From: Candidatus Bathyarchaeota archaeon
Lineage (GTDB): Archaea; Thermoproteota; Bathyarchaeia; Bathyarchaeales; DTEX01
Reading direction: 5' to 3'
NCBI GenBank assembly: GCA_018397065.1
Contig: JAGTRI010000006.1
Coordinates: forward strand, 1-56,330
Length of the DNA: 56,330 bases
In this document: positions 6,044 through 46,199 of the stretch, piece after piece
Numbering within the stretch: position 1 is the first letter of the stretch
Layout: each line of letters starts with the position of its first letter
Notes under the pieces: generated by a model
Seen by the model: only the letters and a program-made list of their open reading frames with translations
Database searches by the model: none
Told to the model about the DNA's origin: nothing
Translations under genes and position numbers: made by a program

Positions 6044-6138
6044 GCGGCCGTAGTCTAGCCTGGTTAGGACGCCGGCCTCCCATTCAATTTGAGAGAAGAA
6101 AGCCGACAGCCCGAGTTCAAATCCCGGCGGCCGCACCA
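6044..6138 (+). tRNA. tRNA-Gly (CCC) with an approximately 18-nt intron, CCA encoded
   Basis: Acceptor GCGGCCG (6044-6050) pairs with CGGCCGC (6128-6134); discriminator A6135 and an encoded CCA (6136-6138) follow. D stem GUCU/GGAC, anticodon stem CCGGC (6072-6076) with GCCGA (6102-6106), T loop TTCAAAT (6116-6122). Anticodon CCC at 6079-6081. About 18 extra bases (6083-6100) lie after position 37, the usual site of archaeal introns; exact ends are uncertain by one or two bases. Two A-C mismatches are present, 27-43 and 52-62. A TATA-like TTTAAA is at 6007-6012. Confidence 0.88.
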
Positions 6139-37091: not shown

Positions 37092-37329
37092 TAATTCCAA
37101 GCTGGGTCTAAGCCTCAGGCGCTGTTCAGCCCGTACAGGCGTTGTCTTCGACGTGCATCGATCTTCAGCTGTTTCGACCGATGCTCTCAACGCCTTAACG
37201 CATCGCGCTTTAAGTATTGTCCAGCCCATTGAAGCAATGTCTTTGTCACGTACCATCTTTCAGCTGTTTCAGATGATACGTTCATTGCTTCAATGCAATA
37301 CTTGAAGCATACTTCCCAGCTTGGGATTA
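37092..37329 (-). ncRNA. Novel structured RNA candidate with two tandem kissing-loop hairpins
   Basis: About 238 bases closed by a helix of 10 perfect pairs (37097-37106 with 37315-37324), extended by four pairs beyond one mismatch. Inside are two hairpins. Hairpin B: 8-bp stem (37212-37219/37296-37303), 12-bp perfect stem (37228-37239/37283-37294), purine internal loop, 10-bp apical helix (37249-37258/37271-37280). Hairpin A: 8-bp stem (37137-37144/37188-37195) and a 9-bp apical helix (37155-37163/37176-37184). Both end in the same 12-nt loop, GAAACAGCUGAA on the minus strand, containing self-complementary CAGCUG. Both apical helices have one site that is a G-U wobble only on the minus strand. 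A TATA-like box lies upstream on that strand. Not a family I recognise. Confidence 0.65.
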
Positions 37330-37347: not shown

Positions 37348-37356
37348 AAATTTAAG
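37348..37356 (-). promoter_or_regulatory. TATA-like box upstream of the structured RNA
   Basis: Reads CTTAAATTT on the minus strand with AAAAGA before it as a BRE-like element. It lies about 25 bases upstream of the first base of the closing helix at 37329, the canonical archaeal TATA-to-start distance. Confidence 0.45.
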
Positions 37357-37657
37357 TCTTTTGCACAAAATTCTAAACAGAATAGTACTTATTTTTTTAA
37401 AAACGGTAGATTTAAAGTCTAGTTACTTTAAGATTCGCAGTTTGTATTTCATTATTATTTTTAATTTTTTTAATTTGCTTACTTTTTTGAAATGGTTATG
37501 AATTAGGTCGAAAAAGTTGGTGACGATGTTTTTGTTGTCATTTTTCACAAAAAGTATTGAGGATGGGATGACATGTTGGCTTATTACGTGTCGTTTTTAT
37601 ACTCTCAAAAAATTTAAATTGTTTTATACAATATTTTGTATGTCTCGAGGTATATTT

Positions 37658-38329
37658 GTGCAGGAATTTGAAAGGGATCTAGAAGTCTTGGCGAAAAGGC
37701 TTTGCCAAGGCGAAGACGAAAGTGTTTCAAAAGAAATAGTAAGGTTAAAAGATCATTTGAAGGTTTTACACAGCAAAAACCTTGTAAAGATTAATCATTC
37801 CGTTATGGAGCTTGTTTGTGCAAAATATTTGGTTCTCGCTGGATACAATGTGGATTTGGAAAAGAGCCTAAATGGATTATCATGTGACATTTATGCTTCA
37901 AAGGGTTTAGGCACGATGATAGTTGAGGTTGAAACGGGTTTTGTTCCGCCTGACCATGCTCTTGACCCTTCAACGTATATTCGAGCTCGAATAGCCAGCA
38001 AAATAACGCGTTACAGCCATTTTGCTGAAAAGTTTGGGTTAGCAGTTCCCCCACATTATGTTATGCCAATTCCTAAAGTTTTAATTGAGCCTCCACGTTA
38101 CCGAAGCAGCGAACAAATATCAGCTATCAAGGCTCTTTGTGACCTTTACTACAGCAATCCTCCTGTGAGTCTCGATGAAATTAGAAATGCCCATATTCAT
38201 ACTGTCTACATTTTGGATGTTGACAACGGTGTAGTGAAAGAGACCGAACCAACAACATATATTGAGGAAACCGAACACCTTTTCTCAAGCAATAAAGTTT
38301 TGGCAACTATCAATCAATCATATGTGTAA
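37658..38329 (+). CDS. PD-(D/E)XK nuclease-like protein, unknown function
   Basis: About 223 residues from GTG 37658, eight bases after GAGGT; ATG 37640 is an alternative, and a TATA-like AATTTAAA near 37609-37616 excludes the open frame further upstream. An N-terminal helical part is followed by CDIYASKGLGTMIVEVETG, the Asp...Glu-x-Glu arrangement of PD-(D/E)XK nucleases (the usual Lys is not evident). A conserved-looking C-terminal half (HYVMPIPKVLIEPPRYRS) has no match I recognise. It stands between the structured RNA (divergent) and a glycosyltransferase. Function unknown. Confidence 0.68.
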   Translation: MQEFERDLEVLAKRLCQGEDESVSKEIVRLKDHLKVLHSKNLVKINHSVMELVCAKYLVLAGYNVDLEKSLNGLSCDIYASKGLGTMIVEVETGFVPPDHALDPSTYIRARIASKITRYSHFAEKFGLAVPPHYVMPIPKVLIEPPRYRSSEQISAIKALCDLYYSNPPVSLDEIRNAHIHTVYILDVDNGVVKETEPTTYIEETEHLFSSNKVLATINQSYV

Positions 38330-45464: not shown

Positions 45465-46199
45465 TTGTCAGTGTTCGCTGTTCCAGGAGCATATGACCGC
45501 GCAATTACGGTGTTCTCGCCGGACGGACGGCTGTTTCAGGTTGAATATGCACTTGCAGCCGTGGATAGAGGCCCAACCATTGTGGGTATTTCGTGCTCAG
45601 AAGGGGTTGTTATTGGAGCAGAAGAAAAAATTGAATCAAAGCTTCAAGACCCAAATTTTAGTCAAAAAATTTATGCGGTTGATGAACACCTTGGTGCAGC
45701 GGTTGTAGGCATAAGCTCAGACGCAAGGATATTGATTGACGAGTCAAGAGTTTACTCGCAAAGTAATAGGCTGATGTATGATGAGCCCATCGACGTTGAA
45801 ATGGTTACGAAAAGAATTGGAGATCTAATGCAAATTTACACCCAACATGCAGGGGTTAGGCCATTCGGTGTTTCGATTATTTTTGGAGGCGTTGACAAAA
45901 CAGGAGCAAGACTTTTCGCTACGGATCCCATTGGCTCATACAGGTCATACAAAGCCCTAGCGATTGGTATTGGCAGAGAAACAGCTGAAAACATTCTCCG
46001 TGAAGAATACAACGAAAATCTAAGTTTAGATGATGCAATACGCTTGGCTGTTAAATGTCTTACGAGATCGTTGCAGGCGAGAGATGAACAGGCAAGAATA
46101 AAAATAGCCGTTATTCCAACAAAGACTAAAACATTTACGCTTTTATCAAATGAAGAAATAGAAAAATGCCAAGCCGAAGTGCTAGGCAGTGGAAAGTAA
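45465..46199 (+). CDS. psmA: 20S proteasome alpha subunit
   Basis: 244 residues, TTG start preceded by AGGTGA. The alpha signature YDRAITVFSPDGRLFQVEYALAAV is at the N-terminus, and GVRPFGVSIIFGG in the middle. Forms the outer gated rings of the proteasome. A TATA-like AGTTTAAAC near 45379-45388 starts the exosome/proteasome operon here. Confidence 0.96.
   Translation: MSVFAVPGAYDRAITVFSPDGRLFQVEYALAAVDRGPTIVGISCSEGVVIGAEEKIESKLQDPNFSQKIYAVDEHLGAAVVGISSDARILIDESRVYSQSNRLMYDEPIDVEMVTKRIGDLMQIYTQHAGVRPFGVSIIFGGVDKTGARLFATDPIGSYRSYKALAIGIGRETAENILREEYNENLSLDDAIRLAVKCLTRSLQARDEQARIKIAVIPTKTKTFTLLSNEEIEKCQAEVLGSGK

Follow-up and report, generated by a model that had tools for sequence, protein, structure and literature searches.

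Tandem pseudoknotted modules in a candidate stand-alone noncoding RNA of Bathyarchaeia and Methanomicrobia

In the SAM-I riboswitch, the lysine riboswitch and the group I P4–P6 domain, a hairpin bends at an internal loop and thereby docks its tip onto the domain's base, while in the twister ribozyme one long hairpin pairs its terminal loop with the 3' strand of an internal loop further down. H/ACA RNAs carry one to three hairpins, each with an internal loop. A pseudoknot repeated in tandem two or, usually, three times has been described as the STAXI motif (RF01728), which occurs in Enterobacteriales near DNA-handling genes, has UUCG tetraloops and is of unknown function (PMC2864571). The GOLLD, ROOL and OLE RNAs are reported to form homo-oligomers (PMC12286853).

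The archaeal RNA described here is nearest in plan to STAXI but shares with it only the idea of tandem pseudoknots, and RF01728 matched neither the Methanomicrobia loci nor the window (the whole 56,330-nucleotide stretch analyzed, from contig JAGTRI010000006.1 of a Candidatus Bathyarchaeota archaeon). Like GOLLD, ROOL and OLE, it appears to be stand-alone, ornate and structured; those RNAs, however, are bacterial and much larger, and the loop pairing of the archaeal RNA stays within one module. The likeness to the riboswitches and P4–P6 is one of plan only, with no sequence relation and no cis gene control seen, and the 5' internal-loop strands and short P2 of twister are lacking, as is an Rfam match. 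Whereas H/ACA RNAs have a variable, two-sided guide pocket, the archaeal RNA has a constant one-sided bulge and a pseudoknotted loop. With the curated gathering score, Rfam 15 gave no match at the element, the only match in the window being a tRNA (6044–6135), and none for five Methanomicrobia loci; relaxed thresholds gave chance-level matches only. As we also found no paper naming such an RNA in open-access text, it is a new RNA family, undescribed in the sources that we could search (open-access literature and Rfam 15).

The initial annotation had proposed an unannotated minus-strand RNA with two tandem hairpins, its own promoter and no known family, and the analysis supports this description. 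On the minus strand, the 238-nt element folds with −97.1 kcal/mol (z = −7.5), a stability reached in none of 200 shuffles, and the plus-strand fold is weaker (−89 kcal/mol). The apical helices are unbroken on the minus strand (11 and 9 bp, including G–U pairs) and each is interrupted on the plus strand, so the foldings of both strands agree with the earlier remark that the plus-strand mismatches become G–U pairs and the helices continuous. The statements about a closing helix that encloses two hairpins with an identical 12-nt loop likewise held wherever we checked them against the sequence: both minus-strand loops are exactly GAAACAGCTGAA (37164–37175 and 37259–37270), and with at most one mismatch this string occurs at five sites in the window against 0.6 expected. 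A third exact GAAACAGCTGAA lies outside any module, in an apparent coding region (45978–45989, plus strand). No comparative support was found for GCATCG as an alternative pairing partner. The element is present once in its own genome, which is 71.6% complete. Its features are the following:

37092–37329, minus strand: whole two-module RNA (fold z = −7.5, homologs, P0 covariation)
Ends of the RNA, minus strand: predicted 5' end near 37329; predicted 3' end near 37092 or within the U-rich stretch that comes after it
37349–37364, minus strand: putative promoter, BRE-like GCAAAAGA (37364–37357) and TATA box CTTAAATT (37356–37349), the TATA at a fixed distance
37315–37329, minus strand: 5' strand of P0 (fold; covariation over 40 loci)
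37092–37106, minus strand: 3' strand of P0 (fold; P0 covariation)
37107–37111, minus strand: internal loop UUAGA above P0, facing AAGUAU (37314–37309); sequence conserved across Bathyarchaeia elements
37207–37308, minus strand: module A, first in the RNA (R1/R2 match 37208–37307, 107.8/106.4 bits)
37308–37296 with 37219–37207, minus strand: P1 of module A
37283–37295, minus strand: 5' strand of P2 of module A, 13 bp with 37239–37227 (complementarity, covariation)
37271–37281, minus strand: 5' strand of P3 of module A, 11 bp with 37258–37248 (fold, covariation)
37259–37270, minus strand: loop of module A, GAAACAGCUGAA; CAGCU (37266–37262) pairs with 37222–37226 (pseudoknot covariation)
37240–37247, minus strand: 8-nt hinge bulge of module A, GACAAAGA (8 nt in 106/111 modules; consensus)
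37222–37226, minus strand: 3' bulge strand GGCUG of module A, pseudoknot partner of the loop (covariation)
37113–37207, minus strand: module B, second in the RNA (R1/R2 match 37113–37207, 78.1/77.8 bits)
37188–37200, minus strand: 5' strand of P2 of module B, with 37144–37132, 85% complementary (covariation)
37176–37184, minus strand: 5' strand of P3 of module B, 9 bp with 37163–37155 (fold, covariation)
37164–37175, minus strand: loop of module B, GAAACAGCUGAA; CAGCU (37171–37167) pairs with 37127–37131 (pseudoknot covariation)
37145–37154, minus strand: hinge bulge of module B, with CGAAGA at its end (fold)
37127–37131, minus strand: 3' bulge strand GGCUG of module B, pseudoknot partner of the loop (covariation)

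Covariance models R1 and R2 list both modules in the window, and model R3 lists module A alone.

When 19 modules were aligned, every hairpin proved to be a copy of a single unit of about 90 nt. From 5' to 3', this module consists of P1, P2 (13 bp), a single A, P3 (11 bp), the loop, P3', the hinge bulge, P2', a further bulge and P1', with few or zero unpaired bases between P1 and P2 on the 5' side. The consensus is RAAA-CRGCK-RAA for the loop, GAYAAAGA for the 8-nt hinge bulge on the 3' side and GGGCYGG for the 3' bulge below P2. Lengths are nearly constant among 111 modules, with a hinge of 8 nt in 106, P3 of 11 nt in 98 and P2 of 13 nt in 88. In 59 modules, 91.4% of the cells were paired and double changes were found in 38 of 41 pairs, counts that lean towards P1–P3 because nested helices guided the alignments A2 and A3; this level was reached in none of 500 shuffles, and with the partner strand slid as a control only 30 to 39% of the cells paired. 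The closing helix P0 covaries across 40 loci. In Bathyarchaeia it carries a conserved internal loop, AGYAN/YYAGA, and in the methanogens, where the RNA is about 330 nt long, it reads UGCCUCAG...GGGGCA. Judged by this comparative evidence, the helices P0, P1, P2 and P3 are real.

Overlooked in the initial annotation was that the strand on the 3' side of each basal stem (GGGCUGG at 37227–37221 and GGGCUGA at 37132–37126) is complementary to the loop of its own hairpin. The resulting helix had 92.1% of its cells paired and double changes in four of its five pairs (59 modules), and this support was not built in, since the pseudoknot is absent from every model used in the alignment. The covarying loop/bulge pairs include CAGCU/GGCUG, CGGCU/GGCCG, UGGCU/GGCCA, CAACU/GGUUG, AGACU/GGUCU and CGGUG/GACCG. 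Among 23 two-module elements, Watson–Crick pairs were more numerous within than across modules in 19 and equally numerous in the other 4, with no element showing the reverse, such that all 19 informative tandem elements favor pairing inside one module; the sign test on these is no more than indicative, given the relatedness of the sequences and the reading of the strings by eye. On this evidence from aligned sequences, we are nearly certain that each module contains a pseudoknot, formed between its apical loop and the 3' bulge below its P2. In one sister genus (g2; L012, L019, L021 and L027), module B lacks the 8-nt hinge bulge and the loop–bulge pairing is kept.

A TATA-like box upstream on the minus strand had been noted earlier; it is present as CTTAAATT, some 23 nt upstream of P0, and homologs keep its distance. 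Of 41 loci from Bathyarchaeia, 30 had their best TATA match inside one 7-nt window, against a maximum of 13 in shuffles, and from this position the start is expected at P0's 5' end. In many loci a U-rich sequence follows directly after P0. A promoter at a fixed distance (in the Bathyarchaeia loci) and compensatory changes in the helices are what a stand-alone noncoding RNA gene should show; with massive compensatory change and a constant TATA distance, the homologs passed two of the checks that the initial annotation had named as able to refute it. The locus thus almost certainly encodes a structured noncoding RNA that stands alone and has its own archaeal promoter, its expression being predicted from this promoter and the covariation. 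In family f5 (L054, L062, L063, L064, L066, L067, L071 and L072), many promoters have a palindrome near TTGTGACATAAATGTCACAA that abuts the TATA box on the upstream side, as if a dimeric DNA-binding protein regulated them.

A DNA search found the element in 17 of the 21 genomes of its own family, and with model R1 it turned up in 56 of the order's 163 genomes and, across the class Bathyarchaeia, in 63 of 257; such genome counts are lower bounds, because the large searches filter strictly and many genomes are incomplete. Model R2, run on 398 genomes of the phylum, gave no match in its other classes. A DNA pattern applied to the GTDB species set returned unexpected records from Methanolinea, Methanoregulaceae and Methanomicrobiales, in which covariance models identified three tandem modules each, about 100 nt apart. 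The RNA was found in 50 of 232 genomes of Methanomicrobia; in a sample of Halobacteriota, 23 of 325 genomes were positive, all within this same class of methanogens, and the rest gave no match. The first pattern found no viral carriers, and a viral (L202) and a bacterial (L089) pattern match received no score with model R3. The two-hairpin architecture described earlier stands for the window, and the homologs show it to be one member of a series, with one module in genus g3, family f25 and locus L150, two in most other Bathyarchaeia and three in many Methanomicrobia. In L153, L155 and L158 (Methanomicrobia), two modules about 90 nt apart have another structured insert at the place of the middle module. 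Genome G032 (L059, L060 and L061) has several one-module copies and one two-module copy; two of the one-module copies sit in different surroundings and are almost the same, so this RNA gene is capable of duplication.

We put at roughly 0.5 the probability of the reading in which the locus encodes a stand-alone RNA from its own promoter and the one to three pseudoknotted modules of this RNA, enclosed by P0, fold back on themselves and make up a multivalent scaffold or decoy. Between P2 and P3, the A-rich bulge of 8 nt would act as a hinge, allowing P3 to fold back antiparallel along P2 and the loop to dock at the foot of P2; this fold-back is suggested by the nearly equal and constant lengths of P2 and P3 (13 versus 11 bp). 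Module B of genus g2, with its missing hinge bulge, counts against this reading. Each module may be one binding platform, probably for a protein, that displays the conserved purines of the hinge and the loop flanks, and tandem copies would give a multivalent RNP scaffold or decoy. Taken by itself, the assignment as a multivalent protein-binding scaffold is tentative, at somewhat less than even odds. We regard as similarly tentative the broader proposal of a new archaeal RNA class in which one to three pseudoknotted fold-back modules form a multivalent RNP, present in Bathyarchaeia and Methanomicrobiales by a very ancient origin and many losses or by transfer. To our knowledge, archaea have few known structured RNA families of their own apart from RNase P, SRP and guide RNAs; this one combines very strong covariation, two distant archaeal groups and a natural series of one, two and three modules, and Methanomicrobiales has cultured members, making expression, structure and partner of the RNA directly testable.

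Less likely, though a serious contender, is a trans-acting regulatory RNA whose modules are aptamer-like sensors of a metabolite or ion rather than a multivalent protein scaffold, and which changes state or sequesters a target upon binding. The highly conserved unpaired purines of the hinge and loop flanks surround the pseudoknot as in many aptamers, and tandem copies are known in sensors such as the glnA and pan motifs (PMC2864571); on the other hand, the loci have no constant downstream gene and no visible expression platform, and nothing indicates a ligand.

Gene neighborhoods differ among the loci. In families f1 and f3 one side is occupied by lig, many methanogens have a membrane-transporter-like gene as neighbor, and other genes occur elsewhere; across the loci compared (Bathyarchaeia and Methanomicrobia clades) no neighbor is constant and orientations vary as well. 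As the neighbors vary and none is constant, the RNA probably acts in trans. The constant position beside lig in f1 and f3, and its location after a same-strand transporter gene in many methanogens, would fit a cis-acting riboswitch, attenuator or 3'-end element of the neighboring gene, here lig, but this is improbable: in the window the RNA converges on lig and is antisense to the end of its mRNA, other loci differ in neighbors and orientations, and the RNA has its own TATA box. A constant link to the 5' ends of genes from one family or a small number of families, as expected of a cis riboswitch, was not found among these loci.

The only recurrent neighbor, a PD-(D/E)XK-like gene (37658–38326, plus strand), encodes a conserved archaeal protein family without match in Pfam, NCBIfam or PADLOC. 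The family is present in 113 of 257 Bathyarchaeia genomes and has invariant C76 D77, E90 and E92; its AlphaFold model is confident (pLDDT 90.7) and weakly matches the folds of SfsA and further PD-(D/E)XK proteins. We consider it quite improbable that the RNA partners this divergently transcribed protein, for instance by guiding or inhibiting it. The weak fold matches of the model, the adjacent divergent gene in f1, f3 and f11 and the co-occurrence within the class (58 of 63 genomes with the RNA versus 55 of 194 without, uncorrected for relatedness) point that way. Yet relatedness confounds the co-occurrence, the gene is not adjacent in f4 and f5, and a search run without a positive control gave zero matches in 232 Methanomicrobia genomes, many of them RNA-bearing. 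The latter speaks against a universal partner, and the analysis found no protein partner.

The initial annotation had read the self-complementary CAGCUG of the loops as a site where two loops kiss or two RNAs dimerise, which would resemble GOLLD, ROOL and OLE, ornate RNAs reported to form homo-oligomers (PMC12286853). The palindrome is present in the window and its closest relatives but in only 14 of 111 module loops; common loop cores, among them CGGCUG, CGGCGG, CAGCGA and CGGUGA, lack this self-complementarity, and the bases in question covary with the bulge inside their module, leaving the kissing model with a very small probability.

A divergent RNase P, SRP or H/ACA guide RNA is extremely improbable, even if the size, the one to three hairpins and an ACA after the bulge in many modules would fit: besides the lack of Rfam matches, separate RNase P RNAs were found in 18 and SRP RNAs in 16 of the 21 family genomes (RF00373 also elsewhere in the genome of the window, on C23; RF01857 unmatched at the element and in that incomplete genome), and in place of a two-sided guide pocket there is one unpaired nucleotide on the 5' side and a conserved 8-nt GAYAAAGA of constant sequence on the 3' side. 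The hinge also lacks the tandem sheared G–A/A–G pairs of a K-turn, the binding site of L7Ae. The G required for the second of these pairs forms a Watson–Crick pair with an invariant C (G–C in 56 of 57 modules), and the position is C–G in some Methanomicrobia, such as L142. The tRNA matched by Rfam in the window (plus strand, 48.3 bits) is missed by ARAGORN and has 92 bases against a 71-position model, and it therefore probably contains an intron.
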